Below, piece by piece: positions 4,065-24,864 of a stretch of DNA of 64,000 nucleotides. The DNA comes from an uncultured Winogradskyella sp. (GTDB lineage Bacteria > Bacteroidota > Bacteroidia > Flavobacteriales > Flavobacteriaceae). The stretch spans positions 124,001-188,000 of the forward strand of contig CAJXLB010000003.1 in the NCBI GenBank assembly GCA_913055905.1, in the 5' to 3' direction. Under the pieces are notes generated by a model, which was not told where the DNA came from, made no database searches, and saw only the letters and a program-made list of their open reading frames with translations. Numbering within the stretch: position 1 is the stretch's first letter; every line of letters starts with the position of its first letter. The translations under genes and the position numbers were made by a program.

Positions 4065-4108
4065 ATGACAAATATCATATTTTAATTTTACACAAAGGAC
4101 AACATTTG
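4065..4108 (+). promoter_or_regulatory. Fnr-like operator plus -7 box upstream of ccoI
   Basis: The operator ATGACA-AA-TATCAT (4065-4078) is a palindrome with one mismatch. A -7 box, AACATTTG (7 of 8 to TAnnTTTG), starts at 4101, exactly 36 bases after the operator starts. With transcription starting near 4113 the operator is centred at about -41.5, the class II activator position. There is no -33 box, as expected for an activator-dependent promoter. Confidence 0.72.
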
Positions 4109-4137
4109 CACTTAGGTATATTAGAGCAAATTGTTAT

Positions 4138-6513
4138 ATGAAAGATTCCACTTGTTTTCATTGTGGAGATAAATGTGGTGAAAATCCCATTCGTTTTCAA
4201 GAAAAATCCTTCTGCTGTAATGGTTGTAAAACGGTTTTCGAAATATTTAGCGAAAATGATTTAACCTGTTATTACGACCTGCAAAATGCTCCTGGTTCCG
4301 TCCCAAAAGAAATTGAAGGTAAATACGACTTTTTATCCCAAGACAATATTGTTGATAAATTAACTGAATTTAGGAGTGAGTCTGTTGAAATCGCCACTTT
4401 ATACATTCCTCATATTCACTGTAGTTCTTGTATCTGGATTTTAGAGAACCTCAACAAGCTTAATCCAAATATTAGTGACTCCATTGTCAATTTTGGCAAA
4501 AAAACAGTCAGGGTTACTTATGATCCGGCTAAAACAAGCCTAAAGGAAGTTGTTCTTCTATTGAGCTCAATAGGTTATGAACCCTACATTAGCCTCGATG
4601 ATTTTAAGTCTGTTCAAAAACAAGTTAATCGTTCTTTAATTTATAAACTAGGTGTTGCAGGTTTTGGCTTTGGAAATATTATGTTCTTGTCCTTTCCAGA
4701 ATATTTTGAGGTGAATGAATTCTGGCTAGAACAGTATAAGCATATGTTCCGTTGGATCATGTTTGCTTTGTCAGTACCTATTGTATTTTATTCGGCGCAA
4801 GATTATTTCGTTTCGGCATATAAAGGTTTAAAAGCGCGCTTGTTAAACATTGATGTTCCGATAGCTCTGGGTATAAGTGTATTATTTATTCGAAGTACTG
4901 CTGAAATCGCCTTCGATTTGGGTTCAGGTTTTTTTGACAGCTTGGCGGGTCTGGTATTTTTTCTTTTGGTAGGTAAATTTTTTCAGCAAAAAACTTATGC
5001 TTTTCTATCTTTTGAACGCGACTACAAATCGTACTTCCCTATTGCGATAACAAAAATCAACAAAGACGGAAGCGAAGAATCCATTCAAGTTTACGATATC
5101 AAAAAGGGAGACCGATTGTTAATTAGGAATGAAGAACTCATTCCCGTAGATGGAGTGCTCATAAACGGAAGAGGAAAAATAGACTACAGTTTTGTAACTG
5201 GAGAATCTCAAGCCGTGACCAAAAAATCTGGTGATAAGGTTTTTGCGGGAGGTAAACAAACCAATGGCATTATAGAGTTAGAAGCTTTAAAATCAGTAGA
5301 GCAAAGTTACCTTACCCAATTATGGTCCAATGATGTTTTCAACAAAGAAAAAGATGAGGGCTTTACCAACATAACCAACGCTATAAGTAAGCATTTTACC
5401 CTTATTGTCCTTGGTATTGCACTCGTTTCTACAACGTATTGGTTACTCACCGATGCCTCCAAGGCTATGAATGTATTTACAGCAGTTTTAATTATTGCAT
5501 GCCCTTGTGCTATTGCACTTTCTGCGCCTTTTACCTTTGGAAATTTGCTAAGAATATTCGGCAAACTCAAATTCTACATAAAAAACGCTAGTGTCATAGA
5601 GAGGTTAGCCCATATCAATACAATTGTTTTCGATAAAACGGGCACACTTACATCCAATAAAAAAAGTCAGGCCGTTTACGATGGTGAAGAACTCAACACT
5701 ACCGAAGCCTTGGTACTCAAAAACACATTAAGAGGGTCTAATCATCCCTTAAGCCGCACTTTATATGACATTTTAGAAGAACATGATATCATAACACTCG
5801 ATACATTTGAAGAGTACGTTGGTAAAGGAATAGAAGCCAAACATAACAATACAGCTCTTAAGATTGGATCAGCTGATTTTGTGGGAGGTGAGCGTGAACA
5901 AAACGCTTTAAACACAACGGTTCACATCAGTAGTAATAATAATTACAAAGGAAAATACACCTTTTACAACAGCTATAGAAAAGGCGTAGCGAAGTTATTC
6001 AATACGTTGAAAAATCATTTTGATTTGGTAATACTTTCGGGCGATAATGAAGGAGAACGCAACAATCTAAAGAAACTATTGCCTGGGAAAACCAAGCTTA
6101 TATTCAACCAAAAACCAGAGGATAAGTTAGATTATATTCAATACCACCAGTCTGAAGGTGCAAAAGTCCTTATGGTAGGCGATGGTCTAAATGACGCTGG
6201 TGCTTTAGCTCAGAGTGATGTAGGCATTGCCATATCCGAAGACATCAATGTTTTTTCGCCAGCTTGTGATGCCATTCTTGACGCTTCAAAACTTAAATAT
6301 TTAGATAGATATCTAGGCGCTGCAAAAACTGCTATTAAAATCATTAAATGGAGTTTTGCCCTGTCGTTTATATATAATGTGGTAGGGCTCTATTTTGCGG
6401 TTACGGGACAATTAGCTCCTGTAATAGCGGCTATTCTAATGCCTTTAAGCTCCATTAGCATTGTAATTTTTACCACTGTTTGCACCAATATTTTGGGACG
6501 AAGATTAAAATAA
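4138..6513 (+). CDS. ccoI: Copper-translocating P-type ATPase for cbb3 oxidase assembly (CcoI/FixI)
   Basis: A P1B-type ATPase of 791 residues that moves copper across the inner membrane, in this family to load the CuB site of cbb3 oxidase. The N-terminus has a cysteine-rich metal-binding segment (Cys6, 9, 13, 26, 27, 30) followed by a heavy-metal-associated domain with Cys95-x2-Cys98. The membrane copper site CPC is at 455-457, the phosphorylated aspartate of DKTGT at 499, and the hinge motif GDGLNDA near 680. The extended Cys-rich N-terminus and the location directly upstream of ccoS-ccoNO point to CcoI rather than a general copper exporter. It has its own Fnr-type promoter. Confidence 0.93.
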   Translation: MKDSTCFHCGDKCGENPIRFQEKSFCCNGCKTVFEIFSENDLTCYYDLQNAPGSVPKEIEGKYDFLSQDNIVDKLTEFRSESVEIATLYIPHIHCSSCIWILENLNKLNPNISDSIVNFGKKTVRVTYDPAKTSLKEVVLLLSSIGYEPYISLDDFKSVQKQVNRSLIYKLGVAGFGFGNIMFLSFPEYFEVNEFWLEQYKHMFRWIMFALSVPIVFYSAQDYFVSAYKGLKARLLNIDVPIALGISVLFIRSTAEIAFDLGSGFFDSLAGLVFFLLVGKFFQQKTYAFLSFERDYKSYFPIAITKINKDGSEESIQVYDIKKGDRLLIRNEELIPVDGVLINGRGKIDYSFVTGESQAVTKKSGDKVFAGGKQTNGIIELEALKSVEQSYLTQLWSNDVFNKEKDEGFTNITNAISKHFTLIVLGIALVSTTYWLLTDASKAMNVFTAVLIIACPCAIALSAPFTFGNLLRIFGKLKFYIKNASVIERLAHINTIVFDKTGTLTSNKKSQAVYDGEELNTTEALVLKNTLRGSNHPLSRTLYDILEEHDIITLDTFEEYVGKGIEAKHNNTALKIGSADFVGGEREQNALNTTVHISSNNNYKGKYTFYNSYRKGVAKLFNTLKNHFDLVILSGDNEGERNNLKKLLPGKTKLIFNQKPEDKLDYIQYHQSEGAKVLMVGDGLNDAGALAQSDVGIAISEDINVFSPACDAILDASKLKYLDRYLGAAKTAIKIIKWSFALSFIYNVVGLYFAVTGQLAPVIAAILMPLSSISIVIFTTVCTNILGRRLK

Positions 6514-6523
6514 ATAAAGTGAT

Positions 6524-6567
6524 ATGACAAATGTCATGTTTTAGATATGAACACAAGAGTATTTTTG
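6524..6567 (+). promoter_or_regulatory. Fnr-like operator plus -7 box upstream of ccoS
   Basis: The operator ATGACA-AA-TGTCAT (6524-6537) is a perfect palindrome. The -7 box TATTTTTG (6560-6567) matches TAnnTTTG fully and again starts 36 bases after the operator. Transcription would start near 6572, 16 bases before the ccoS start codon. This is the best copy of the four sites in the window. Confidence 0.8.
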
Positions 6568-6587
6568 AACCATAACTTCAATTAGGT

Positions 6588-6773
6588 ATGAGCGTTATAT
6601 ACATTGTTTTAACGGTAAGTGTTATCGTTGGTGTAGGTTTTTTTATTGTTTTTTTACTGGCCGTAAAGTCTGGACAATACGATGACAGCTACACACCATC
6701 GGTGCGCGTTCTTTTTGAAGACGAACTCGTAAAGGATAAAACTAAACAATCGATAAAATCAAAAACTGACTAA
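6588..6773 (+). CDS. ccoS: cbb3-type cytochrome oxidase assembly protein CcoS
   Basis: A 61-residue protein with one N-terminal membrane segment (about residues 4-26) and a short acidic tail. This fits CcoS, a small factor needed for cofactor insertion into cbb3 oxidase. The family hallmark is a single helix followed by a stretch such as SGQYDD, seen here at about residues 28-33. It is the first gene of the ccoS-NO-Q-P-G-fixH run and lies 10 bases before ccoNO. Its size and position make the call firm although little of such a short protein is conserved. Confidence 0.88.
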
Positions 6774-6783
6774 TTTTTTTAAT

Positions 6784-9000
6784 ATGGAAATGCAACAATT
6801 TTACTACGATAATAAAATCGTAAAAAAATTCCTCTACGCCACCATACTATGGGGAGTCGTTGGGATGCTCGTTGGCTTACTGCTAGCGTACATGTTTTTA
6901 TTCCCCAATGTAACGGATGGAATATCCTGGCTAAGTTTTGGCCGTCTTAGACCGCTTCATACAAATGCTGTCATTTTCGCCTTTGTTGGAAACGCCATTT
7001 TTGCAGGTGTCTATTATTCACTACAGCGTTTGCTCAAAGCAAGAATGTTCAGTGATTTTTTAAGTAACCTAAATTTTTGGGGCTGGCAATTAATTATCGT
7101 AGGCGCAGCGCTCACGCTTCCTCTAGGATATACAACCTCAAAGGAATATGCCGAGTTGGAATGGCCTTTTGATATTGCAATCGCATTGATTTGGGTCGCT
7201 TTTGGCGTTAATATGATAGGTACAATTCTTAAGCGTCGCCAGCGCCATTTGTATGTTGCTATTTGGTTCTATATCGCCACGTTTGTAACCGTTGCAGTAC
7301 TCCATATTTTTAACAGCTTGGAACTTCCAGTAAGCGGACTTAAGAGTTATTCCGTCTATGCTGGTGTTCAAGATGCCTTAGTCCAATGGTGGTATGGGCA
7401 TAATGCCGTGGCATTTTTCTTAACCACACCATTCCTAGGTCTAATGTATTACTTTGTGCCTAAAGCAGCTAATAGACCCGTTTACTCTTACAGACTGTCT
7501 ATAGTTCACTTTTGGTCGCTCATATTTATTTACATCTGGGCAGGACCGCACCACTTACTATATACAGCCTTACCAGAATGGGCTCAGCACCTAGGTGTTG
7601 CATTCTCTGTAATGCTTATTGCACCATCTTGGGGTGGTATGATAAACGGTTTGTTAACCTTACGAGGCGCTTGGGATAAAGTGAGAACAGACCCAGTTCT
7701 CAAGTTCATGGTTGTAGCCATTACGGGTTACGGTATGGCAACTTTTGAGGGCCCAATGTTATCACTGAAAAATGTAAATGCCATTGCCCACTTTACCGAT
7801 TGGATTATTGCTCACGTTCACGTAGGCGCTTTAGCTTGGAACGGGTTCTTGGCCTTTGGTATGATCTATTGGCTAATACCGCGATTATTTAAAACTAAAC
7901 TACATTCCGTAGGTCTTGCAAATCTGCATTTCTGGGTAGGAACACTCGGTATAATTTTATATGCACTACCAATGTACGTTGCTGGTTTCACCCAAGCTAG
8001 TATGTGGAAGCAGTTTAACCCAGACGGTACTTTAGTTTACGGTAACTTCCTAGAAACCGTAACTGAAATTATACCTATGTATTGGATGAGAGCCATTGGA
8101 GGTACCTTGTACATTACGGGTATGCTTGTGCTTGTGTACAACGTCATAATGACAATTGTTAAGTCCGATTCTAAAGTAACCGATGAGCTTGCTGAGGCAC
8201 CAGCACTTAAGCGTGTTTCTAAATCTCGGGTTGCCGGTGAAGGATGGCACACATGGTTGGAGAGAAAACCAGTATTGTTAACCATATATGCAACGATTGC
8301 CATATTGATAGGTGGAATTGTTCAAATTATACCAACCTTGGTGGTTGAGTCTAATATCCCTACCATAAGCAGTGTGAAACCTTATACACCATTAGAACTT
8401 GAAGGTCGTGACATTTACATCCGAGAAGGCTGTGTAGGTTGTCATTCGCAAATGATAAGACCTTTTAGAAGTGAGGTTGAACGTTACGACTGGACTTCGG
8501 ACAAGCAGTACTCCAAAGCTGGGGAGTATGTCTATGACCATCCATTCCTTTGGGGCAGCAAGCGTACAGGACCAGACTTGCACCGAGTTGGAGGTAAATA
8601 TTCCGATAACTGGCATTTTAACCATATGTACGATCCTCAGAGCACCTCTAGTGGTTCCATTATGCCATCTTACAAGTGGCTCATCGTTGGAAAAGGTGCG
8701 GAACTTGATAAGTCTATGACCGAAAAGAAAATGGAGACCATGGTTAAGCTTGGTGTACCATACACGGAAGAAGACATAGCCAACGCCCAAGCCTCAATGC
8801 TTGAGCAAGGTACACAGATAGAGAAAAATCTATATAGCGATCCTGACTTTGTTGCGTCTTATGAAGCCGATAAAGCAGCAGGTGGTGAAGATTTTGTTGA
8901 AATGCGAAACCGAGAAATCGTTGCAATTATTGCTTACCTACAACGACTGGGTACAGACATTAAAGTGAAGGATGACGAAAATATAACCGCTCAAAATTAA
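6784..9000 (+). CDS. ccoN: cbb3 cytochrome c oxidase, fused subunits I and II (CcoN-CcoO)
   Basis: The catalytic core of the high-affinity terminal oxidase, which reduces O2 to water and pumps protons. Residues 1 to about 475 form CcoN with around twelve membrane helices. Visible ligands are His59 and His346 (haem b), His206, His256 and His257 (CuB) and His344 (haem b3). The C-terminal part is CcoO, a membrane-anchored cytochrome c with Cys550-x2-Cys553-His554. In proteobacteria these are two genes; the 738-residue fusion is common in Bacteroidetes. There is no frameshift or internal stop at the junction (about residues 480-510). The gene is followed after 6 bases by ccoQ. Confidence 0.95.
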
Positions 9001-9006
9001 ATCGCC

Positions 9007-9195
9007 ATGCTAAAATTTGTAAAACATCATATGGAGAGTATAACTGGGATAGAAATATACCCTATAATCTCCTTGCTCATATTTTTCATCTTCTTTGTAG
9101 TTCTATTCTACTGGGTAATTACTGCGAAAAAAGACTATATCAATAAAGTGAGCCAAATACCATTAGAAAACCAACAAAACGACACACTATCATGA
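9007..9195 (+). CDS. ccoQ: Small cbb3 oxidase subunit, CcoQ-like
   Basis: A 62-residue protein with one membrane helix (about residues 17-38) and a polar C-terminal tail. Size, topology and position between ccoNO and ccoP fit CcoQ/FixQ, a small subunit that stabilises the oxidase. Sequence conservation in this family is low, so the name rests mainly on gene order. Its stop codon overlaps the ccoP start by 4 bases (ATGA), which suggests coupled translation. Confidence 0.75.
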   Translation: MLKFVKHHMESITGIEIYPIISLLIFFIFFVVLFYWVITAKKDYINKVSQIPLENQQNDTLS

Positions 9196-10205
9196 GAAAG
9201 TTAATTCCATCATATATAAGAGTGCCTGTTATATTCTTTGCTATCGCAGGCTTAGTTGAATACTTCATAGATTCAGGAGAGCAACCTGCATTTATGCAAC
9301 CCGTAGTCTTACTGTTTCTTGTCTTAGTTTTTTTAATTCTTGTGGCTATAGAAGGTATCGTAAGCTCTATGGACAATATCCTGTTCCAAAGTTTGGATGA
9401 AGAGGCCAAGGAGCGCTACCTAGCAAAACAGGGAGAAATACCACTATTCAACAAAATCAAAGCCATATACAAAAAACTGGCAGGTGGTAAACCTATTGAA
9501 GAGGAAGGCGAAATTATTTTAGATCATAATTACGACGGCATAAAAGAGCTAGATAACAATCTACCACCATGGTGGTTGTACGGGTTCTATGCGACCATCC
9601 TTTTTGGAGTGATTTATATGGTACGTTATCATGTCCTTGGGGCCGACGATCAATTCGTAGAATATGAAATTGAATATGCCGAGGCACAGCGCGCCATCGA
9701 AGAATACAAAAAAACGGCCAAAAATCTTGTGGATGTAAATACGGTTGAAGTTCTAACGGATGCTGCCGATTTAAATGCGGGTAAAAAGATTTTTGAAGCC
9801 AACTGCGTCGTCTGTCATATGGCTGATGGTGGCGGTGGAATTGGTCCTAACCTAACCGATGAAAACTGGATTTTAGGTGGTGGTATCAAAAATGTTTTCA
9901 ATACTATTTCCGAAGGTGGTAGAGCCGGGAAAGGAATGGTATCCTGGAAAACGGACCTAAAACCTATTGAAATGGCGCAAGTAGCCAGTTACGTACTGCA
10001 ATTTCAAGGTACAACACCTGCCAATCCAAAAGCCCCAGAAGGTGAGATTTGGATAGATGCGTCTTTAAAAGACACCGAAACAGGTGACGAAGTGCACGAT
10101 GTAGATATTAAAGTTGATACCGAAGATACTACTGAAGAGACCGAAGCAGCAGCTGATGAAGAAGCTACTAACATGGAAAGCACAACCATAGCGTCTAATA
10201 ATTAA
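9192..10205 (+). CDS. ccoP: cbb3 cytochrome c oxidase diheme-type subunit III with one visible haem site (CcoP)
   Basis: CcoP passes electrons into the cbb3 oxidase. The 337 residues start with two hydrophobic segments (about 10-60), then the conserved CcoP N-terminal membrane element with PPWWLYGFYATILFG (about 123-140), then a cytochrome c domain with Cys205-x2-Cys208-His209. Proteobacterial CcoP has two CxxCH motifs; only one is present here. The C-terminal 50 residues are acidic and low in complexity (runs of Glu, Asp and Thr), which is unusual. It overlaps ccoQ by 4 bases and is followed by ccoG after 22 bases. Confidence 0.92.
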   Translation: MRKLIPSYIRVPVIFFAIAGLVEYFIDSGEQPAFMQPVVLLFLVLVFLILVAIEGIVSSMDNILFQSLDEEAKERYLAKQGEIPLFNKIKAIYKKLAGGKPIEEEGEIILDHNYDGIKELDNNLPPWWLYGFYATILFGVIYMVRYHVLGADDQFVEYEIEYAEAQRAIEEYKKTAKNLVDVNTVEVLTDAADLNAGKKIFEANCVVCHMADGGGGIGPNLTDENWILGGGIKNVFNTISEGGRAGKGMVSWKTDLKPIEMAQVASYVLQFQGTTPANPKAPEGEIWIDASLKDTETGDEVHDVDIKVDTEDTTEETEAAADEEATNMESTTIASNN

Positions 10206-10227
10206 AATGTAGCACAGCTACCCTACC

Positions 10228-11652
10228 ATGGAAGCACCACAAAATGAAGTTTTTAGAGATTCTATTGCCACCATCAATGAAGAAGGGAAGCGCAATTGGA
10301 TTTTCCCTAAAAAACCTTCAGGGCCATATTATGAGAAACGTAAAATAGTTAGCTATGTTCTCTTAGCTTTCTTATTTGCTGCACCATTCATTAAAGTTAA
10401 TGGTAACCAATTTTTAATGTTTAACGTTTTAGAACGACGTTTCAATATTTTTGGTTTTCCATTTTGGCCGCAGGACTTTCATCTGTTTGTGATTTCCATG
10501 ATTATTGGAGTGGTATTTGTCACTCTATTTACTGTTGGCTTTGGGCGTATTTTCTGTGGGTGGATCTGTCCGCAAACTATTTTCATGGAAATGGTTTTCA
10601 GACGCATTGAGTATTGGATCGATGGCGATCGTAACAAACAAATGCGTCTAGCTAGACAAAAATGGGATGCAGAAAAAATCAAAAAACGTGTCTTTAAGTG
10701 GTTCATATTTTTGGTGATTTCGTTTTTAATAGCCAATGTGTTCCTAGCCTATCTCATCGGTAGCGATAAGCTCATACAATACATTGTTGATGGCCCTATG
10801 GCACATCTTGGTACTTTGGTGCCCTTATTGATTTTTACAGGAGTATTCTATTTCATCTTTGCCTGGTTTAGGGAGCAAGTTTGCATCATTGCGTGTCCTT
10901 ATGGGCGCTTGCAAGGCGTTTTACTCGACAATAAGTCTATTGTAGTCGCGTACGACCATAAACGTGGTGAAGGCGAAAACGGAAGAAAGAAATTCAGAAA
11001 AAATGAAGATAGAGAAGCCCTAGGTCACGGTGATTGTATTGACTGTTTTCAATGTGTGCACGTCTGCCCAACAGGCATAGACATTAGAAATGGCACCCAA
11101 CTGGAATGCGTGAATTGTACGGCCTGTATTGATGAGTGCGATACCATCATGGAAAAAGTAGGCTTACCAAAAGGACTCATACGTTATGCCAGTGAAGAAA
11201 ATATAGAGAAAAAAGTACCTTTTAAATTAACCGCTAGGATGAAGGGCTATATTGCCGTTCTAGTAATTCTCATTGGTGTATTGTTAGGAATGTTGGCCCT
11301 GAGAAATGATGTTGAAGCTAGGGTTTTAAGACTTCCAGGACAACTATATGAGAAAAAAGAGAACAACATTATAAGTAACGTCTACACCTATAAACTCGTA
11401 AATAAAACTACAAAAGACATTGAAGATGTCAGTTTCAAACTTAGAGGTGTTGATGGCACTATTAAACTTGTATCCACAGAAGATAGTTTTGTGGTTGAAT
11501 CTCAAGGATTGGCAGAAGGCACCTTGTTTATAGAACTGAATCAAAATGATCTTTCTGGTGATAAAAATGAACTTATGATCGAGGTTTACAGTAAAGACGA
11601 GCTCATTGAAACAACAACAGTAAGTTTCTTGGGACCACGAACCTTTAATTAA
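10228..11652 (+). CDS. ccoG: cbb3 oxidase accessory iron-sulphur protein CcoG
   Basis: A 474-residue membrane protein with about five helices and a polyferredoxin-type core. Two 4Fe-4S motifs are visible: CIDCFQCVHVCP and CVNCTACIDECD (about residues 270-312). Further cysteine pairs occur in FCGWICPQ and CIIACPYG, as in the NapH/RdxA family. CcoG is known to reduce Cu(II) for delivery to the cbb3 assembly pathway. The C-terminal 120 residues form a periplasmic immunoglobulin-like domain after a last helix near residue 345. The place between ccoP and fixH is the standard operon position. Confidence 0.92.
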   Translation: MEAPQNEVFRDSIATINEEGKRNWIFPKKPSGPYYEKRKIVSYVLLAFLFAAPFIKVNGNQFLMFNVLERRFNIFGFPFWPQDFHLFVISMIIGVVFVTLFTVGFGRIFCGWICPQTIFMEMVFRRIEYWIDGDRNKQMRLARQKWDAEKIKKRVFKWFIFLVISFLIANVFLAYLIGSDKLIQYIVDGPMAHLGTLVPLLIFTGVFYFIFAWFREQVCIIACPYGRLQGVLLDNKSIVVAYDHKRGEGENGRKKFRKNEDREALGHGDCIDCFQCVHVCPTGIDIRNGTQLECVNCTACIDECDTIMEKVGLPKGLIRYASEENIEKKVPFKLTARMKGYIAVLVILIGVLLGMLALRNDVEARVLRLPGQLYEKKENNIISNVYTYKLVNKTTKDIEDVSFKLRGVDGTIKLVSTEDSFVVESQGLAEGTLFIELNQNDLSGDKNELMIEVYSKDELIETTTVSFLGPRTFN

Positions 11653-11661
11653 TAAAGTGTT

Positions 11662-12108
11662 ATGAAAATAAATTGGGGAACAGCAATCGTATTAGCCATA
11701 ATCGGATTCATATCGTTTATCATGTTTTTCGTAATAAAAATGAGCACTAACGATAAGTATGATCATGATTTGGTAGTTGAGGATTATTATCAAAAAGAAT
11801 TGAATTTTCAAACTGATATTAATAAGGAATCCAAGTCAAAAGAACTGAAAACCAATGTTTCCTATAAAAAAACAGAAGAGGGGATTTTAATTAGCTTCCC
11901 TCCAGAGTTAGACTATAATAAAATTGATGGTAAAGTGTTCCTATATAGACCATCTAATAAACAATTAGATTTTGAAATTTCCATTTCTTTATCTAACCAC
12001 AATTTGCTCATACCTGACAAACGTTTATTGGATGGTCGCTGGAACATTTCTATCGATTGGGCCTATGAAGGAGAGTCTTACCTTTTCAAGGAAGCCATTA
12101 CCTATTAA
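11662..12108 (+). CDS. ccoH: FixH family protein
   Basis: A 148-residue protein with one N-terminal membrane helix (about residues 7-26) and a periplasmic beta-rich domain. It fits FixH/CcoH, a single-span partner of CcoI needed for stable cbb3 oxidase assembly. The pattern of a KYDHDLVVEDYYQKEL segment after the helix is typical of Bacteroidetes FixH. It follows ccoG after 9 bases and is 2 bases from the next gene, so it is clearly within the operon. Confidence 0.85.
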   Translation: MKINWGTAIVLAIIGFISFIMFFVIKMSTNDKYDHDLVVEDYYQKELNFQTDINKESKSKELKTNVSYKKTEEGILISFPPELDYNKIDGKVFLYRPSNKQLDFEISISLSNHNLLIPDKRLLDGRWNISIDWAYEGESYLFKEAITY

Positions 12109-12110
12109 AC

Positions 12111-12812: not shown

Positions 12813-12819
12813 AATTACT

Positions 12820-13477: not shown

Positions 13478-14311
13478 CTATATCTTAAACGTCATAACCG
13501 GCAAGGTAGAATGATTTGCAATATCTTCAGAAATACTTCCTTCAAAGAAATGAGCCAAGCCCTTGCGACCGTGCGTAGCCACAGCAATTAGATCTGCACC
13601 AATGACGTTAGCATAATTTAAAATTCCTTTTTCAATGGAATAATCACAAACAACATGAACATTTGGCAAGTTATCCAAACTTCCGTCAGCCTTCTTTAAG
13701 AATAAGGAAACCTTTTTATCAATTTCCATGGAGCTTCTAAAGTTACCGTCTGGTGAATTGACGTAGACTAAATGCATGTTAACGCCTAACTTTTCAAATG
13801 TTTTTTTGGCATTTATGTACGGTGTTATGGCTTCATCAGAAAAATCGCTTGCAAACACACCATTTTCAAAATCCAATAAAATAGGATTGTGCTTAATGAC
13901 CAATACTGGGATATCTGAGTGCCTAACCACCTTCTCTGTATTAGATCCCACAAGGACCTCCTTAACGCCACTTACACCATGCGAACCCATCACGATGAGG
14001 TTGGCATCGTACTCGTTGGCCACATCGTTTACTTCACTAAATACTTTAAAGTGTTTTACAATAGGCGTTACTTTAATTCCTTCTAAATAAGGCTTATCTA
14101 AAAAGGCTTCAAACTTTTGTTCTGCAAGTTTGAGATAAAATACAGCCTCTTCGTTTATACTGTTTCCATTTGAAGTTAGAATGGCATTGGAAAGCTCTAA
14201 CATATGTAAAACAAATAACTCTGAGCCGTATTTCTCAGCCAAATTAGCTGCAGCTTCGAGAGCATATTCAGAATGCTCAGAAAAATCAATTGGTACTATT
14301 ATTCGTTTCAT
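13478..14311 (-). CDS. Tandem-domain universal stress protein (UspA family)
   Basis: A 277-residue protein made of two Usp domains (about 1-145 and 150-277). Domain 1 has the nucleotide-binding motif MGSHGVSGVKEVLVGS and domain 2 has ATHGRKGLAHFFEGS, both close to the G-x2-G-x9-G-S/T pattern of ATP-binding Usp proteins. Such proteins help survival under starvation or low oxygen. The gene starts 10 bases after hemN on the same strand, so it should be under the same Fnr-like promoter. That would make it a low-oxygen stress protein; this regulatory part is inference. Confidence 0.9.
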   Translation of the reverse strand: MKRIIVPIDFSEHSEYALEAAANLAEKYGSELFVLHMLELSNAILTSNGNSINEEAVFYLKLAEQKFEAFLDKPYLEGIKVTPIVKHFKVFSEVNDVANEYDANLIVMGSHGVSGVKEVLVGSNTEKVVRHSDIPVLVIKHNPILLDFENGVFASDFSDEAITPYINAKKTFEKLGVNMHLVYVNSPDGNFRSSMEIDKKVSLFLKKADGSLDNLPNVHVVCDYSIEKGILNYANVIGADLIAVATHGRKGLAHFFEGSISEDIANHSTLPVMTFKI

Positions 14312-14321: not shown

Positions 14322-15686
14322 TTATATGGTCATTGAAAATAATTGTGTGTTTGGCTTTTTGCGCTGTAGTAACAGATCAAAAGCCATACAGATGTTTCTT
14401 ATAAAAGGTCGTCCTTTTTCAGTAACAATGACTTGCTTTCGTTCAAATTCCAGCAAACCATCGCGTTCAAATTCTTTAAGTTTTATGAGTACCTCAGGTA
14501 ATTCTTCAAACATCATAGATGGTTCAAGCCACGATGTTTTTAAATGGCACATGAGGTTTAAAATATGCTTTCTAATGATTAAATCTTCGGTATTGAGGAT
14601 ATGCCCACGATAAACCGGTATAATGCCTTCATTAACCAAATGATAATATTCTTCAATAGACTTCACATTCTGGGCAAATCCATACCAGCTGTCACTTATA
14701 GCTGAAACGCCTAGACCAATCATGCTCTGTGTTTTTGAAGCGGTATAGCCCATAAAATTCCGATGTAGCTTCTCGTGCTTCATGGCTCTGTAAAGGCTAT
14801 CTGTAGGCAGGGCAAAATGGTCCATACCAATTTCTACATAGCCAACTTTCTCTAGCATCTTCTTGCCAATTTCGTATTGTTGTCGCTTAGATTCTGGTGT
14901 TGGCAAATCTGCATCTTTAAAGCCGCGTTGGCCGTTACCCTTAATCCATGGCACATGAGCATAACTATAGAAAGCGATACGATCTGGTTTCAATTCTTCG
15001 GTATAAGCTATAGTCTTAACAATATCATCTTCGGTTTGAAATGGTAAACCAAAAATAATGTCGTGGCCAACCGAAGTATATCCTATTTCCCTAGCAAGTG
15101 CTGTAACTTCCTTGACCTTATCAAAGGTTTGTATCCTGTTAATGGCCGTCTGGACCTTGGGGTTATAATCTTGAACACCAAACGATACGCGCGTAAACCC
15201 TAAATCGAACAAGGTTTGAAGATGTTCCCTCGTGGTGTTGTTGGGGTGCCCTTCAAAACTAAATTCGTAGTCCGGTGCAAGATCTGCTCCAGTCAATAAT
15301 TCCGAAATAAGAAATTTGAGATTTTCTGGTGCAAAGAAAGTGGGTGTACCGCCACCTAAATGTAATTCCTTTATTCTAGGCTTGTGGTTAAATAAGTCCA
15401 GATAAAGATTCCATTCCCTCAGAAGTGCCTTAAGATATGGCAACTCTACATCATGCCTTTTGGTTATTCGTTTATGGCAACCACAAAACGTGCATAAACT
15501 TTCACAGAATGGCAGATGAATGTAAATAGACAAGCCTTCGGTCTCATTAGTCTCTTCAAAAGATCGCTTAATCGATTGTTTCCATTTTTTCATGGAAAAC
15601 GTTAAGAAATCCCAGTAAGGAACCGTAGGATAACTAGTGTAGCGTGGTCCCGCTACATTGTATTTATGAATTAAGTCTTGGCACAT
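14322..15686 (-). CDS. hemN: Oxygen-independent coproporphyrinogen III oxidase (HemN)
   Basis: A radical SAM enzyme that converts coproporphyrinogen III to protoporphyrinogen IX without oxygen, a late step of haem synthesis. The 454 residues match true HemN. Cys61-x3-Cys65-x2-Cys68 binds the 4Fe-4S cluster and Cys70 gives the extra cysteine found in genuine HemN (C62/C66/C69/C71 in E. coli). GGGTPTF near residue 110 is the SAM-binding glycine motif. It supplies haem for the cbb3 oxidase when oxygen is scarce. A perfect -7 box and an Fnr-like operator lie just upstream, and usp follows in the same operon. Confidence 0.95.
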   Translation of the reverse strand: MCQDLIHKYNVAGPRYTSYPTVPYWDFLTFSMKKWKQSIKRSFEETNETEGLSIYIHLPFCESLCTFCGCHKRITKRHDVELPYLKALLREWNLYLDLFNHKPRIKELHLGGGTPTFFAPENLKFLISELLTGADLAPDYEFSFEGHPNNTTREHLQTLFDLGFTRVSFGVQDYNPKVQTAINRIQTFDKVKEVTALAREIGYTSVGHDIIFGLPFQTEDDIVKTIAYTEELKPDRIAFYSYAHVPWIKGNGQRGFKDADLPTPESKRQQYEIGKKMLEKVGYVEIGMDHFALPTDSLYRAMKHEKLHRNFMGYTASKTQSMIGLGVSAISDSWYGFAQNVKSIEEYYHLVNEGIIPVYRGHILNTEDLIIRKHILNLMCHLKTSWLEPSMMFEELPEVLIKLKEFERDGLLEFERKQVIVTEKGRPFIRNICMAFDLLLQRKKPNTQLFSMTI

Positions 15687-15702
15687 AACGATTAGTGATG
15701 CT

Positions 15703-15746
15703 CAAAATTAAGCCGAGCAATCCTTAAATTATATGATATTTGTCAT
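15703..15746 (-). promoter_or_regulatory. Fnr-like operator plus -7 box upstream of hemN
   Basis: On the minus strand the operator ATGACA-AA-TATCAT (15746 to 15733) is identical to the one before ccoI. The -7 box TAATTTTG (15710 to 15703) is a full match to TAnnTTTG and again starts 36 bases after the operator. Transcription would start near 15698, about 11 bases before the hemN start codon. Confidence 0.78.
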
Positions 15747-15932: not shown

Positions 15933-15958
15933 CAAGAGTAACAACAAAACAAAAAAAC

Positions 15959-16543: not shown

Positions 16544-16564
16544 AAAAACAAAAGACTACAGCGT

Positions 16565-16594
16565 AAAGCCATCACTAATATGATGGCTTTTTTT
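16565..16594 (+). terminator. Intrinsic terminator after sodC
   Basis: A perfect 10-bp stem, AAAGCCATCA/TGATGGCTTT (16565-16574 with 16581-16590), with a 6-base loop and T-rich tail. It lies just before the first possible start of the LETM1-related gene. Confidence 0.88.
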
Positions 16595-16650
16595 ATGGCG
16601 CGATGTCATTTAAAATTAAAATCTATCTTTATATCACCAAATGCTTTTCT

Positions 16651-17832: not shown

Positions 17833-17848
17833 TTCTTCTATTCAGCTA

Positions 17849-18604: not shown

Positions 18605-18605
18605 C

Positions 18606-19079
18606 TTATATTTTAAATTTTTTAGCTTTTGTGTGAATAATGGCGCCGCCAACTGCAGCTGTCAAGGCCGTAGCTAGCATAACCATCCACCAGAATTCCT
18701 TCATATTTCCAACGAAACGCGTTCCTATTTCTGACCAAAAAGCACAATACAAGCCAACTACAGACCAGCTCATAAAATAATAATGGTAAGACAGCCAATT
18801 CTCTTTCTTTTGTAGGGTTGGCAGCATGCCACCAGCAATACTAACCAAACTAACTATGGCAAAAAAATGAAATAAACTAAACCCTCCAAAATTCACGATA
18901 AAAAAGGAACTTACATTTAGGGAGAGCATAGAGACCACATAGATATAGCCTATTCTTTTATGAAACAATGTTCCTTTTGGGTTTAAGATTACCACTAACC
19001 CAGTTATCAAGGCTACTACAGATGTTATAAAATGGAACCATCCTATTCCGTTTTGTATGATTTCGTTTAAGTAATTCAT
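18606..19079 (-). CDS. DUF2306-like integral membrane protein
   Basis: A 157-residue protein with about four membrane helices and short loops. The pattern WFHFITSVVALITGLVVIL, HKRIGYIYVVSML and a late W-x-E-IGTRF fits the DUF2306 family, whose function is unknown. Its stop codon lies 1 base before the LytTR regulator start codon, so the two are surely co-transcribed. A sensory or accessory role in the two-component system is possible but is only a guess from position. Confidence 0.75.
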   Translation of the reverse strand: MNYLNEIIQNGIGWFHFITSVVALITGLVVILNPKGTLFHKRIGYIYVVSMLSLNVSSFFIVNFGGFSLFHFFAIVSLVSIAGGMLPTLQKKENWLSYHYYFMSWSVVGLYCAFWSEIGTRFVGNMKEFWWMVMLATALTAAVGGAIIHTKAKKFKI

Positions 19080-19102
19080 AAGTTATTCATCTTCATTTTC
19101 AC

Positions 19103-20266
19103 TCATTCTACATTTACTTTAATACCTTTTTTCCAAATCTGTTCTATATTTTCCAATACGGCAATATCCTTGGTAACATCGCCGTCGATTAGGATTAAAT
19201 CAGCATAAAACCCAGGTTTTATATAACCTAATTTTTCTAGTCCAAAAACCTGAGCTACATTACTCGTCGCCGTTTTAAGCACTTCCTTAGGGGACAGTCC
19301 AGCCTCACTAAGCAACTGTAATTCGCTGTAGATATCCGTGCCGTAGTTGATACCTAAATTCGGTGGATCTGTACCTGCTAGGATTGTTACTCCGGCATCA
19401 AATAACTTTTTTATTTCGGCGAGCAACTGTTCTTTGTTCATAAATTTTTCGGCATTGGCACCCATGCTTTCAAAAGCCTTTAATGTTGTTAGGAGTGTTG
19501 GAATAACAAAGAACGCATTGTTTGTAACCAAGGACTCAAGTTGTTCTTTTTCCATAGGCTTATCCCACCAAATATGAGCCAATCCGTCGGCATTTTTTGA
19601 GAGAACATTTATAGCATCTGCTAATCGGCTCACATGGACTACAGTAACTTTATCTGCTTTTTGTGCTTCTTCTATAATAGCGGCAACTGTTTCTATGCTC
19701 AGGGTTTTCTTCCAGGGCTCTACAATAATTTTAATATGGTCTACATTAGACTTTAAACGGCCATCAACAAAAGATTTGGCATCCTCAGGGCCTTTTAGGG
19801 TTGGCACCGGAAATCCAAATTGTGTTCCATGACCTTCTGGAGCCGTGGCCGCATAGCCAGCGACAAAAAACCTGGCATAGTTGGTAGAATCTTTTAATTG
19901 CCGCATGGCCATCTGAAACGGTTCTACGCCGTGCATATCCATAACATTTAAAACACCTGCTTTTGCAGCCTGTTGAAGCGATTGCGGTGACCAAGCATGC
20001 ACATGAGCATTACTTAAAGCTGGAATGACCGTTTTACCGTTTCCCTCTATAATGCTATCGCCTTCTTCTATAGCTATCGCACTTCCAATATTTGTTATAA
20101 GTCCGTTTGAAATTCGCAATGAGGTGTTTTCAATAACGTTTTCACCATCAAAAACTTTGACATTTTTAATAACAAAACTATTCTGAGCGTCCATTTGCCA
20201 TGCAAGGCAGAGTAGAGCTGCAGTAACCAGTATCTTAATTTTATTTGCTACCAAACGCATTATCAT
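19103..20266 (-). CDS. Secreted amidohydrolase, imidazolonepropionase/prolidase-like
   Basis: A 387-residue metal-dependent hydrolase of the amidohydrolase superfamily, with a signal peptide ending at WQMDAQ. Metal ligands are visible: the HxH pair in SNAHVHAW (about 88-90), Lys in DHIKIIVEP, the His of VTVVHVSR and LAHIWW, and the Asp of AGTDPPN. The small beta-sandwich at both ends is also present. This domain set fits periplasmic imidazolonepropionase-like or Xaa-Pro dipeptidase-like enzymes; the substrate is not clear. It overlaps the preceding 2TM gene by 4 bases, tying a hydrolase into the signalling operon. Confidence 0.88.
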   Translation of the reverse strand: MIMRLVANKIKILVTAALLCLAWQMDAQNSFVIKNVKVFDGENVIENTSLRISNGLITNIGSAIAIEEGDSIIEGNGKTVIPALSNAHVHAWSPQSLQQAAKAGVLNVMDMHGVEPFQMAMRQLKDSTNYARFFVAGYAATAPEGHGTQFGFPVPTLKGPEDAKSFVDGRLKSNVDHIKIIVEPWKKTLSIETVAAIIEEAQKADKVTVVHVSRLADAINVLSKNADGLAHIWWDKPMEKEQLESLVTNNAFFVIPTLLTTLKAFESMGANAEKFMNKEQLLAEIKKLFDAGVTILAGTDPPNLGINYGTDIYSELQLLSEAGLSPKEVLKTATSNVAQVFGLEKLGYIKPGFYADLILIDGDVTKDIAVLENIEQIWKKGIKVNVE

Positions 20267-20607
20267 TTCCAGTTTTGCTCCTCTTTATCCATAAATTCCT
20301 TAATCTTTCGTTTTTCCCAATCTTTTCCGAAAATGAAGTCGGGACCAAAAACACCTAAAAAGTGAAAAAGCAAACCTATTCCCCAGAAAATAGCCGTGGC
20401 ATAGGTTCCAAATCCTCTAAAACCATCTCCAGAATAAAAACCGATCAGTAAAATTAAAAAGGCATTAACTATAATATATACAGCAAGATGCCAGTAGAAG
20501 CCTACTAAGGTTTCTACCTTCTTTTTTGCTCTTAAGTAAGCTTCTTCCCTTCTAAAATCTGAGGGTTCATTATTTTCCTCATAAGGCTTGATACTATATT
20601 TTTCCAT
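20263..20607 (-). CDS. 2TM domain protein (second free copy)
   Basis: A 114-residue protein made almost wholly of one 2TM domain: a basic helix RAKKKVETLVGFYWHLAVY, two membrane helices, then the C-terminal motif WEKRKIKEFMDKE. The motif recurs in the two preceding genes, giving three related modules in one operon. The N-terminus carries a 20-residue polar extension. Function is unknown; family members often sit beside LytS/LytTR systems in flavobacteria. Confidence 0.85.
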   Translation of the reverse strand: MEKYSIKPYEENNEPSDFRREEAYLRAKKKVETLVGFYWHLAVYIIVNAFLILLIGFYSGDGFRGFGTYATAIFWGIGLLFHFLGVFGPDFIFGKDWEKRKIKEFMDKEEQNWK

Positions 20608-20617
20608 GATGACATTT

Positions 20618-20920
20618 CTATTTATTGGACAATTCCTTGTCCATATATTCGTTGATTTTTTTCTCTTCCCATTGGCTGCCTACGCGGAACATAAAAAAGT
20701 GAAATAGTAAAATAGCTCCCCAAACAATCCAATTGCTTAATACATTAATGCTCACTAATTCATTTGTAAAATCCTCCCAACTTGACAAATTATCATAGAC
20801 CTTAAAGGCTGTAATTCCACTATTCACGAGGATAAAAACAACCAAATGGTTATAAAACCCCTTTTCACGCTGCACGCGGTGCTTTGCTCTTATATATTTT
20901 AAATTTCTACTCTCTTCCAT
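20618..20920 (-). CDS. 2TM domain protein (first free copy)
   Basis: A 100-residue protein with the same layout as its neighbour: RAKHRVQREKGFYNHLVVF, two membrane helices and the closing motif WEEKKINEYMDKE. It starts 9 bases after the histidine kinase and ends 10 bases before the next copy. The shared GFY-x2-L-x2-Y/F and W-E-x-R/K-K-I motifs mark these as paralogues. Small size and lack of polar pockets argue against an enzyme. Confidence 0.85.
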   Translation of the reverse strand: MEESRNLKYIRAKHRVQREKGFYNHLVVFILVNSGITAFKVYDNLSSWEDFTNELVSINVLSNWIVWGAILLFHFFMFRVGSQWEEKKINEYMDKELSNK

Positions 20921-20929
20921 TTTTAAAAC

Positions 20930-22285
20930 TTATTTCCAACGGTTATCATCTTCTTTACGCATATATTCTTCTATTTTGCGCTGTTCCCATCGGGCTCCCA
21001 ATGCTCCATTATCTATAAATACGCGGTAAGCTTGAAAAACTAAACTAAGGCCCCAACCTACCATTGGAAACCAAAACCACTGTATAGTGTAAGGTGTAAA
21101 CTTGTACCAAATAAATATTAAAAATGGAATGATGACGAAATAGGAGATTAGACTGTAATAAAAGCCCTTAAGCTCTTCTACCTTCTTGCGCGCACGCACA
21201 TAGTCGTCGTTTAGCTTTTCTGGACTTGGTAATGTTCTTTTCATAATTGATACTTGTTTTGTGAGCATTGGAATGCCTACGGCAAAATCCTTCTCTCGTT
21301 GATTGATGACTACTTTTTTATTGGACAACAAATTATAACGTTGCTTAATGTTCTCTAATCCCACTCCACTACTTTTCTTTACAATTTGCTTTGGTTGAAG
21401 ATTGTTCATTACCACGAGATAATCGCCATCTTCATAAATCTTAATATGTAGCGGTTTACTCGAGGTTACCATATTGTGCTTCACGGCATTTTCGAGTAGC
21501 AATTGTAATGACAAGGGAACGACTTTACTTTCTGGATTTGTTGCCTTATCTGGGATTTCAAAAATGATACTATCCTCAAAACGCATTTTAAGCAAAGACA
21601 TGTAAGTTCTAGCAAAATTCAGCTCTTCATCCACCGTAACCAACTCCTTATTCTTTTGTTCCAATACATATCTATAAACCTTTGATAATGCGGTAGTAAA
21701 TTTCTGTGCACTATCAGGATTCTCCTCAATAAGACTTGTCAATACATTAAGACTGTTAAAAAGAAAATGAGGGTCTAATTGATTTTTTAGGGCATCAAAC
21801 TTGGCACTCGCTGTGCCTGCGATTACTTTTTGTTCCTTAACCTTGGTTTTCTGCAGTTCCTTGTAATAATAGAGCGCATGAAAAAACAGAGATATAATTA
21901 AAGTTATAAATAGAGCACTCACATAGAATTCTGCGCGCTCACTCTTCCAAAACTCTACCGCACTTTCACCTTCAATTACTATCTCAATAAAGGCTCTAAC
22001 AAAAAATATGGTTATTAAGGTAATAGCTACAGAACCGATAAAACCTATAGGCATTCTGTATTTGGCATATTTACGCCATACTACTTTATGGTTGAGGTAA
22101 TCAAAGAATTCTGAATTTACCAGAGTCAATGGTATGGAATAAATGAGATAATATAGAAACGATCTTAAGAAGCTTTTGTTAAACGCAATTTCCAATCCTG
22201 AAAAATAGCGTATAACCTGGTCTACAGCCATTATGGCCACGGCAACTATTATTCCTGAAAGTAGGGTTTTAAAAAATCGTTTCAT
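20930..22285 (-). CDS. LytS-type sensor histidine kinase fused to a 2TM domain
   Basis: A 451-residue membrane kinase. Four hydrophobic segments (about 8-27, 40-56, 80-100, 122-141) lead into the His_kinase domain with His173 in DPHFLFNSLN, the N-box LLLENAVKHN (262-271) and the glycine box GVGLENIKQR (307-316). It ends with a complete 2TM domain (about 362-451) carrying RARKKVEELKGFYYSL and WEQRKIEEYMRKE. An in-frame methionine at 348 (codon at 21244) opens MKRTLPSPEKL, which looks like the start of a once separate 2TM gene. The likely target is the LytTR regulator at the end of the operon. Confidence 0.92.
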   Translation of the reverse strand: MKRFFKTLLSGIIVAVAIMAVDQVIRYFSGLEIAFNKSFLRSFLYYLIYSIPLTLVNSEFFDYLNHKVVWRKYAKYRMPIGFIGSVAITLITIFFVRAFIEIVIEGESAVEFWKSERAEFYVSALFITLIISLFFHALYYYKELQKTKVKEQKVIAGTASAKFDALKNQLDPHFLFNSLNVLTSLIEENPDSAQKFTTALSKVYRYVLEQKNKELVTVDEELNFARTYMSLLKMRFEDSIIFEIPDKATNPESKVVPLSLQLLLENAVKHNMVTSSKPLHIKIYEDGDYLVVMNNLQPKQIVKKSSGVGLENIKQRYNLLSNKKVVINQREKDFAVGIPMLTKQVSIMKRTLPSPEKLNDDYVRARKKVEELKGFYYSLISYFVIIPFLIFIWYKFTPYTIQWFWFPMVGWGLSLVFQAYRVFIDNGALGARWEQRKIEEYMRKEDDNRWK

Positions 22286-22302
22286 TGTGTTAAAAAGTTT
22301 CC

Positions 22303-22923: not shown

Positions 22924-22933
22924 AATAATTGGT

Positions 22934-23356: not shown

Positions 23357-23598
23357 GATGTTTCTTTTTTTGAATGTGATACAAATATCTAACACGTATA
23401 AAGATATTTAAAAGAAGCCTTACTGAATTGTATTTTTTTATTGATGAATTGTAAACAAGTGATTTGTTACAGTATTATTTAGCGTAATTCACGTCGGTTT
23501 CAGTACATATTAGTTTAGCAATTAGATGAAATATGGAGTACTTCCATCTCCGATAAAGTCATTTACTTTTTTTAACTTTAGCTATACTTGTTCTCATT

Positions 23599-23964
23599 AT
23601 GGACAAAAAAGCTGGACTTACAAAAGATGCTGGGTGGCAATTTGGAATACGGCGGACAATTCCTGTTAGTCTAGAGAAGACATGGGATTACCTGTTTTCA
23701 GAAAAATGTGCATCTATTTGGTTAAGAGATGCAGAAACTGAGTTCTCCACAATCAAAACGCATTCTCACATAAGAACAAAATGGAAGCTTAGTCCTTGGC
23801 CCAATAAGGCGAACTTGCAAATGAGAGTCATTCCCCGTAAAAATAAAACAACCATTGCGTTTCATATCGATAGACTGGAAAGTGAGCAGCAGAGAAACGC
23901 TTCTAAAATATATTGGACCAACGTTATCACTGACCTCATAAAGACACTGCAAGACGATAACTAA
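23599..23964 (+). CDS. SRPBCC (START/AHSA1-like) domain protein
   Basis: A 121-residue cytoplasmic protein with the START-like layout: an early IRRTIPVSLEKTWDYLFSE segment, a central sheet and a C-terminal helix ending WTNVITDLIKTLQDD. The family binds hydrophobic ligands or acts as a co-chaperone, but no ligand can be named. It stands alone: 242 bases of gene-free sequence precede it, with TATACTTG and TAACTTTA as possible -7 elements. In the gap of 108 bases behind it I see nothing of note. Confidence 0.75.
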   Translation: MDKKAGLTKDAGWQFGIRRTIPVSLEKTWDYLFSEKCASIWLRDAETEFSTIKTHSHIRTKWKLSPWPNKANLQMRVIPRKNKTTIAFHIDRLESEQQRNASKIYWTNVITDLIKTLQDDN

Positions 23965-24072
23965 AAGCCTTTTTACGGCATAAGCCAAATACAATTATTC
24001 GAATTGCCAACTGCATGTCTTCTAAATCACTTATCTTTATGAGCATAGCATTACTTAAATTCGTAAAATACC

Positions 24073-24750
24073 ATGAGACGTCAGCTTTTAATACCTTTTA
24101 TAATCGTAGGATTACTATTATCCTGTAATTCCTCAGATAAAAAAACAGCAGCAGAGTTAGAATCAGATAACCAAACGGACTCCACCGCTGTAAAAAAAAT
24201 TAAAGACAAAACTTTTGTTGCTATAGATTCGGACGAAGCCCTTGTTGCCACGGCTCTTATGGCAGCACCTAAGGCCAGTAGAGAACGGTGTAAGGTAATC
24301 GGTTATAATATGAATGGTGAATTTGTGACCTTTAGAGAAGGTGATAATGAATTTATAGTACTTGTTGACGACCCAAAGAAACCAGGTTTTAATGCCGCCT
24401 GTTACCACAAGAATCTAGAGCCATTTATGGCAAGGGGTCGCGAATTAAGAGCCCAAGGAAAAACGGCAACCGAAATTTTTGATATAAGGGAAGCAGAGGC
24501 TAAATCAGGTAAGCTAGATATGGGAAAGCCAGGTTCTACCTTACATATTTATTTTGGCCCTAATGAAACATATGATCCCGAAACCTTTGAAGTTGAGGGT
24601 GCGCACTACCGTTACGTGGTTTACATGCCTTTTGCAACCGCAGAATCTACAGGTTTGCCCGAAGTACCGATAGCGGCAAATCATCCTTGGATCATGAATC
24701 CTGGCACGCATAGGGCTCATATTATGATTTCGCCAGTAGCAGAAGATTAA
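24073..24750 (+). CDS. Lipoprotein of unknown function
   Basis: A 225-residue envelope protein with a lipoprotein signal ending at LLLSC (Cys18). A Lys/Asp-rich linker follows, then a globular domain from about residue 55. Conserved-looking features are SRERCKVIGY with Cys75, FNAACYHKNLEPF with Cys113, and a late HPWIMNPGTHRAHIMISP with three histidines that could bind a metal. I do not recognise the family. It has its own upstream TATCTTTA (7 of 8 to the -7 box) and no partner gene on the same strand within 130 bases. Confidence 0.75.
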   Translation: MRRQLLIPFIIVGLLLSCNSSDKKTAAELESDNQTDSTAVKKIKDKTFVAIDSDEALVATALMAAPKASRERCKVIGYNMNGEFVTFREGDNEFIVLVDDPKKPGFNAACYHKNLEPFMARGRELRAQGKTATEIFDIREAEAKSGKLDMGKPGSTLHIYFGPNETYDPETFEVEGAHYRYVVYMPFATAESTGLPEVPIAANHPWIMNPGTHRAHIMISPVAED

Positions 24751-24820
24751 TAGATTCCGGTTTATCTTGTAATTATCAAGATGTAGAGCCTTTTTAAACT
24801 AAAGGGCGTCTTACATCTTA

Positions 24821-24864
24821 CTGACATTGGTCATTTCTTCTTCGAAATTGATTCTTTATTTTTA
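24821..24864 (+). promoter_or_regulatory. Fnr-like operator plus -7 box upstream of the ArsC-like operon
   Basis: The core TGAC-ATTG-GTCA (24822-24833) matches the TGAC-N4-GTCA half-sites of the other three operators, extended by a T on the right. A -7 box TATTTTTA (7 of 8) starts at 24857, exactly 36 bases after the operator starts at 24821. The same register as at ccoI, ccoS and hemN is hard to explain by chance. Transcription would start near 24869. Confidence 0.62.

Follow-up and report, generated by a model that had tools for sequence, protein, structure and literature searches.

We analysed a window of 64,000 nucleotides from an uncultured Winogradskyella sp. (NCBI GenBank assembly GCA_913055905.1, contig CAJXLB010000003.1, positions 124,001 to 188,000, forward strand). 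The subject is a palindromic operator, ATGACA-N2-TGTCAT, which stands before four transcription units of this window (Table 1): ccoI, divergent from the gene of a Fnr-like regulator; the cbb3 oxidase operon; hemN with a universal stress protein (Usp) gene; and a small operon. The ccoS homologue L231 carries the Pfam family FixS. The names ccoI and hemN and those of the other cbb3 operon genes come from an earlier sequence-only reading and from general knowledge. That reading had placed the palindromes at 4065, 6524, 15746 (minus strand) and 24821, each followed by a TAnnTTTG-type -7 box starting 36 bases after the operator start. All four were present when the sequence was read, the spacing was exact in 4/4 sites, and two boxes matched at 8/8 and two at 7/8 positions. 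It had also claimed no other copy upstream of a gene in the window. The genome-wide register scan, at up to 3 mismatches in all, gave only these four there, which bears the claim out for this threshold; a weaker candidate, with 3+1 mismatches, lies at 26024 on the minus strand. Without the register, the operator at up to 3 mismatches occurred 41 times in the window, compared with a mean of 33.0 in shuffled sequences, and 41 was reached by 10 of the 100 shuffles. The operator alone is not clearly enriched at this threshold. Since it is common there by chance, it is the register that carries the signal.

The genome of the same organism (2.95 Mb) was scanned with the pattern operator-N22-TAnnTTTG, as the sequence-only reading had proposed, with reversed patterns as the control. 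At up to 2 mismatches there were 14 matches and 0 in the controls; at up to 3 mismatches there were 31 and 8, respectively. Of the 31 matches, 30 were read as loci (C10:15639 was left out; L034 is the L018 operator read from the opposite strand). An ATG of an open frame lies 60-73 bases past the operator start in 23 of these 30 loci and at 48 and 96 bases in two more; in the remaining 5, either no frame fits or the site falls within a gene frame. With up to 1 mismatch and no register required, the operator gave 17 sites compared with 4 in the controls. Ten of these sites are also among the register matches, one of them inside an antisense frame. In 60 genomes of the genus, exact operators numbered 58, compared with 11 reversed controls. 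The register was tested without selection on 33 of the 58, namely 29 from relatives (one per genome) and the 4 of the present genome. TAnnTTTG with up to 1 mismatch stood at exactly +36 in 25 of the 33, and the mean was 0.92 boxes per offset (66 strand placements, operator-overlapping offsets left out). The binomial p for the +36 peak was 3e-29, a value that does not refer to independent events because the rows are partly orthologous promoters. A chance origin, with short palindromes lying near A+T-rich promoters, would agree with the unclear enrichment of the operator alone in the window and with the 7 of 17 operator-only sites outside the register list. However, equally frequent random matches inside genes, which the sequence-only reading had set as its refutation, would then be expected, and the register enrichment, the start-codon spacing and the exact +36 peak clearly contradict this, as does the conservation across genera. 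Individual weak sites such as that at 24821 aside, the control counts refute chance as the origin of the sites, and we regard its probability as next to nil. At G000:C4:212708-212781, one operator stands between divergent units and has an in-register box towards each of them, at 3 mismatches either way; the flanking units encode a CBS protein and a small protein followed by an ABC1 kinase.

Table 1. Operators, -7 boxes and genes of the proposed regulon in the 64,000-nucleotide window
Feature	Position	Strand	Sequence or evidence
Fnr-like Crp/Fnr regulator, 225 amino acids, probable operator reader	3350..4027	-	Pfam cNMP_binding, HTH_Crp_2
Operator, common to ccoI (class II) and the divergent fnr-like gene	4065..4078	+	ATGACAAATATCAT
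-7 box of ccoI	4101..4108	+	AACATTTG, 7/8 match
ccoI, copper P-type ATPase of the cbb3 oxidase locus	4138..6513	+	Open reading frame
Operator before ccoS-NO-P-G-H, exact consensus	6524..6537	+	ATGACAAATGTCAT
-7 box of the cbb3 operon	6560..6567	+	TATTTTTG, 8/8 match
ccoS, fused ccoNO (6784-9000), ccoP, ccoG, ccoH: cbb3 oxidase operon	6588..12108	+	Open reading frames
Universal stress protein, second gene of the hemN unit	13478..14311	-	Pfam Usp
hemN-type radical SAM protein	14322..15686	-	Pfam Radical_SAM
-7 box of the hemN unit	15703..15710	-	TAATTTTG, 8/8 match
Operator before hemN	15733..15746 (starts 15746)	-	ATGACAAATATCAT
Weak operator of the small operon, 2 mismatches, in register	24821..24834	+	CTGACATTGGTCAT
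-7 box of the 24821 unit	24857..24864	+	TATTTTTA, 7/8 match
Small 72-amino-acid gene (no Pfam family) and ArsC-like gene	24888..25485	+	Open reading frames, Pfam search

The first genes after the genome-wide sites encode, by Pfam, pyruvate formate-lyase (pflB), formate-tetrahydrofolate ligase (fhs), Usp, CBS, DUF294-CBS and PPK2 proteins, a cytochrome c carrying a Tll0287 domain, a biotin-lipoyl protein whose gene is followed by that of biotin carboxylase, a pyridine-nucleotide oxidoreductase, LysE, CitMHS, a TonB-type protein and the radical SAM protein of hemN; a few belong to no family. On contig C4, sites are crowded in a Usp gene cluster with an Hsp20 gene and a kinase-regulator pair. The low-oxygen gene content that had been proposed for the regulon holds, with cco, ccoI, hemN and pflB among the targets. 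Indirect support for an oxygen response comes from Flavobacterium psychrophilum, in which the cbb3 oxidase is strongly induced under oxygen limitation and haem enzymes are induced too (PMC9723704). Of 30 named ccoI loci, 27 have the operator upstream in register when 3 operator and 2 box mismatches are allowed, and 22 do when the total is limited to 3. For ccoS-NO the same holds in 39 of 40 fetched genomes, with up to 4 mismatches in the operator, up to 1 in the box and the ccoS start at 60-66. In the window's operon ccoN and ccoO form one frame; several related genera have one stop codon within the corresponding stretch.

The 24821 operator, with two mismatches, is the poorest of the four in the window. 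Among 29 homologues read, which do not include the closest, L347, a site of this type at 3 mismatches in all was found before 1, the window's own, and before 8 at 4+1 mismatches; it was missing before L348 and L349, two of the closest homologues read. With conservation this partial, the 24821 unit as a conserved target is only partly supported. Elsewhere in the window, the stretch 17849-22285 presumably encodes a LytTR-type regulator and a histidine kinase with a C-terminal 2TM-like tail, with two free short 2TM-like proteins nearby.

The sequence-only reading had put the operator centre at -41.5, the class II position. Start sites mapped in F. psychrophilum put the box at -12 to -5, with a median leader of 24 bases (PMC9723704). 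Because the box here occupies +36 to +43, transcription is expected to start 48 bases past the operator start, which gives a centre of -41.5; the class II geometry is thus borne out with box positions mapped in Flavobacterium, and the implied leaders of the register units are about 12-25 bases. The half-site ATGAC-N4-GTCAT has, as had been stated, the geometry of the E. coli Fnr site TTGAT-N4-ATCAA, and it differs from that site in sequence. On the strand of the fnr-like gene, a -7 box stands at +22 of the same operator in 22 of the 27 in-register ccoI loci, and the operator centre is at -27.5 of this promoter. Bound there, the Fnr-like protein is predicted to repress its own gene.

The Fnr-like protein matches PF00027 and PF13545 above their cut-offs, that is, a cNMP-binding fold with a Crp helix-turn-helix. 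Its best NCBIfam match is Fnr at 91.2 bits, below the cut-off of 228, and a structure comparison placed 2gau first and FNR-type structures next. The nearest named orthologues are from Winogradskyella and are up to 96% identical. A glutamate and an arginine of the recognition helix contact DNA in FNR, and the corresponding E191 and R195 were found in 39/39 nearer orthologues and were invariant in the 19 rows of a second alignment. Six cysteines were kept in 39/39 nearer orthologues; C4, C7, C53 and C106 were kept in all 19 rows, and C29 and C59 were lost in two rows at 55% identity. C4, C7 and C106 align with the N-terminal CxxC and the central cysteine of FNR. We believe that the Fnr-like protein is probably the oxygen input and that it most likely holds an oxygen-labile Fe-S cluster. 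The cysteine spacing weighs against this. FNR has three N-terminal cysteines in the spacing CX2CX5C, and here CX2C is followed only by C29 (CX2CX21C), so that the third cluster ligand is off the FNR spacing. With the loss of C29 and C59, C53 is left as the other cysteine common to all rows. The predicted structure, from 19 close orthologues, had a mean pLDDT (predicted local distance difference test) of 52, too poor to use. Because of the cysteine spacing and the loss of C29 at 55% identity, the protein is classed as Fnr-like and not as FNR. The displaced third ligand and the invariant C53 would also suit a regulon that senses a non-oxygen signal, such as nitric oxide or the thiol redox state, through the cysteines. 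Low-oxygen targets (cbb3 oxidase, oxygen-independent haem synthesis and pyruvate formate-lyase) argue against such a signal, as does the rise of cbb3 and haem enzymes under oxygen limitation in F. psychrophilum (PMC9723704, accessible part). We consider a non-oxygen signal quite unlikely. Ten bases past the fnr-like gene, on the same strand, lies a gene for a flavin mononucleotide-dependent alpha-hydroxy-acid dehydrogenase-like protein, which we take to be lactate dehydrogenase-like; the two may form an operon (window 2185-4027).

The sequence-only reading had considered one regulator. The Crp/Fnr type holds up, with the Fnr-like protein as the probable main reader, but the view of one regulator is too narrow, since a receiver-Crp protein probably shares the operator. 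This protein, of 349 amino acids, is encoded in the C4 cluster, and its gene overlaps a histidine kinase gene. Its domains PF00072, PF00027 and PF13545 make it a response regulator with a Crp output, paired with a kinase. A frame lies directly upstream of the receiver-Crp gene in 54/54 loci (one only 156 amino acids as seen), the ATPase motif QGTGIGLNI occurs in this frame in 49/53 loci (L340, which belongs to the 54-locus reading, is left out of the 53-locus counts), and Pfam kinase domains were found in the upstream frames of the present genome and four others. The recognition helix is ATETFIR, compared with ATESAIR in the Fnr-like protein, and the helices TESAIR and TE[TS]xIR both retain the glutamate and arginine aligned with FNR. 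Beside the main receiver-Crp protein, several genomes have a second receiver-Crp group at about 39-45% identity.

In a survey of 149 genera, with E cut-offs of 1e-40 for the Fnr-like and 1e-60 for the receiver-Crp protein and up to 2 mismatches per site, 944 sites were found, compared with 41 reversed controls. The mean number of sites was 11.4 in genomes with both regulators (37 genomes), 5.6 with the Fnr-like protein alone (55), 6.3 with the receiver-Crp protein alone (29) and 1.2 with neither (28). Within the genus (37 genomes), the means were 9.9 with both (23) and 5.1 with the Fnr-like protein alone (10); two genomes with receiver-Crp alone had 0 and 5 sites, and two with neither had no sites. 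Relatives of the fused CcoNO were present in 116 of the 149 genomes. Among these cbb3-positive genomes, the receiver-Crp protein was present in 28/29 without a Fnr-like orthologue and in 36/87 with one, and only G130 was without both. The cbb3 operator stood in register in 23/24 fetched receiver-Crp-only genera, in 15/15 Fnr-only genera and in G130 (operator up to 4 and box up to 1 mismatch), and at the cbb3 promoter of three more receiver-Crp-only genera. Other stretches of receiver-Crp-only genomes have the operator before ccoS, hemN, Usp, cytochrome c and 2-oxoacid:ferredoxin oxidoreductase genes.

It could be assumed that the Fnr-like protein is the sole reader wherever it is present, and that the receiver-Crp protein reads the operator only in lineages without it, with no dual control here. 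That receiver-Crp-only genera retain operator and register agrees with this, and a parallel swap is described for Caulobacterales in the accessible part of PMC4999443. However, an operator lies within 200 bases past the receiver-Crp stop in 39/53 loci (up to 3 mismatches; loci of all kinds), also in genomes with both regulators, such as the present one at 3 mismatches, and genomes with both regulators have about as many sites as the two single classes added together. We therefore find a sole reader unlikely. The receiver-Crp fusion beside a PAS kinase probably reads the same operator as the Fnr-like protein.

Several observations weigh against the receiver-Crp protein as second reader, or limit the counts behind it. 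G118, G157 and G190 (L247, L250 and L251) hold a Crp paralogue of about 250 amino acids with a CX2CX4C N-terminus, a central cysteine and the helix TEEQVIR, in which the cysteine spacing is nearer to FNR than that of the window regulator, and this paralogue could be the operator reader in these genomes. If so, the receiver-Crp protein might read only the sites of the Usp cluster and leave the cbb3 sites to such a paralogue in genomes without the Fnr-like orthologue; further Crp-family proteins do occur in several genomes. The cysteine-bearing paralogue was found, however, in only 3/29 receiver-Crp-only genomes among the best matches read, and 20/21 fetched receiver-Crp-only genomes other than these three still have the cbb3 operator. 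Among the paralogues read, those of G195 and G113 lack a FNR-like cysteine group, and with the cut-off relaxed, the receiver-Crp protein itself came out as the best Crp match in most of the 29 genomes. A division of labour of this kind seems very unlikely to us. In addition, 27 of the 28 genomes with neither regulator are also without cbb3 oxidase, so their low site counts may reflect missing targets and prove little. Sites without either regulator, at the E thresholds applied, were counted in G130 (13; 82% complete), G229 (8; 73%) and G220 (3; 99%). No site at 2 mismatches turned up in G210 and G226, both of which encode the Fnr-like protein; G226 does have one in front of cbb3 at 4. In G014, which has the receiver-Crp protein, the only site has 3 mismatches, and G122 was the genome without an operator before cbb3 among the fetched promoters. 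The counts are not independent because the genomes share ancestry.

A CcoI tree (about 200 columns, 36 of 41 rows, with the unreadable rows G124, G156, G089, G195 and G118 left out, and 4 starred branches only) forces at least 4 changes of the regulator label. The operator begins with C at 18 of the 23 receiver-Crp-only promoters that have one and with A at 13 of the 15 Fnr-only promoters. As a mark that tells the regulators apart, base 1 was rejected, with C in the Fnr-only G226 and G182 and A in the receiver-Crp-only G151 and G157. Since G226 and G182 sit among receiver-Crp-only rows of the tree and exceptions occur both ways, base 1 seems to follow lineage.

The kinase whose gene overlaps the receiver-Crp gene (G000:C4:149459-151342; L134:9459-11342) has the order PAS-LOV-PAS-HisKA-HATPase, and its LOV domain is canonical. 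LOV domains have a photoactive cysteine and residues that contact the flavin, and both are present here in the motifs NCRFLQ, NYKKDG, FWN and IGIQ. In the PDB, this domain matched sensory-box, phototropin and blue-light-photoreceptor LOV chains, with a best E of 3.5e-36. A LOV-like domain (over 140 bits) was found in at least 29 of the 54 kinases beside receiver-Crp genes, that is, in at least 21/29 relatives in the genus and at least 8/25 of the family sample (present genome included); these are lower bounds, with many kinases read to 500 amino acids. The LOV cysteine was present in at least 28 kinases, and the LOV-like domain of L180 is without it. No LOV domain was seen in the visible parts of six receiver-Crp-only kinases sampled (G212, G195, G124, G151, G225 and G118), and four of the six are plain PAS kinases by Pfam. 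Judging from this small sample, a light input may thus have been added later to a redox kinase, in genomes that have the Fnr-like protein as well. We propose tentatively, and with less than even confidence, that in marine Flavobacteriaceae blue light (LOV kinase via receiver-Crp) and oxygen (Fnr-like) set one low-oxygen and survival regulon, and that the regulators replaced each other several times while the cbb3 operator stayed.

Overall, we believe that ATGACA-N2-TGTCAT is the class II operator of a Fnr-like regulon in Winogradskyella and other Flavobacteriaceae, with roughly 25 units in the present genome and the receiver-Crp protein as a second reader of the same operator, and we put the probability of this whole explanation at about 0.7. 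A Crp-family dimer would bind at -41.5 and recruit RNA polymerase to the TAnnTTTG promoter. The Fnr-like protein, as main reader, would turn on cbb3 oxidase, oxygen-free haem synthesis, fermentation and survival genes. The receiver-Crp regulator, presumably phosphorylated by the PAS (often LOV) histidine kinase beside it, would read the same operator and could replace the Fnr-like protein. This offers a concrete low-oxygen regulon that can be tested in a large family of bacteria from the sea and fresh water. It also provides a natural series of regulator exchanges on an operator that stayed the same, and possibly a point at which control by blue light and by oxygen meet directly.

Compared with FNR of E. 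coli and Aliivibrio fischeri, as it is generally known, the window regulator shares the Crp fold, the N-terminal CxxC, the central cysteine and the glutamate and arginine of the recognition helix, and the system shares the centre at -41.5 and the low-oxygen targets. It differs in the operator (ATGAC-N4-GTCAT instead of TTGAT-N4-ATCAA), in having no third cysteine at the FNR spacing, in an isoleucine for the FNR serine, in the TAnnTTTG promoter and in scoring 91 bits against a cut-off of 228. The kinase resembles LOV histidine kinases (PDB 6ph3 and 6pps, 'Blue-light-activated histidine kinase') in its LOV domain with the NCRFLQ cysteine, HisKA and HATPase; unlike in those, the partner here is a receiver-Crp protein whose operator a Fnr-like regulator would share. 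In the open-access literature, the scope of our search (subscription papers and preprints lay outside it), none of the papers listed dealt with a Flavobacteriaceae Fnr regulon or with a LOV kinase that has a receiver-Crp partner, and in a term search the accessible part of PMC6365647 held neither CRP nor LOV. MalR-type Crp/Fnr homologues in a metagenome-assembled genome of Flavobacteriales, for which carbon sensing is predicted with a Bacteroides MalR matrix, belong to the same family and the same bacterial order; in the accessible part of PMC8510549, however, no low-oxygen operator is reported for them. A parallel in the regulatory change itself is from Caulobacterales, in which the accessible part of PMC4999443 proposes that FnrN was replaced by FixLJ-FixK on existing FnrN sites. 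In both cases two oxygen-response inputs would act on one operator before cco and hemN, and the Fe-S regulator, a putative one here, is lost while the operator stays. The alphaproteobacterial system belongs to another phylum and uses another operator, and its parts are arranged differently. Here the kinase is a PAS or LOV kinase with no haem PAS shown, and the receiver and Crp domains are in one protein, so that the kinase would act on the operator directly, without the FixK step.

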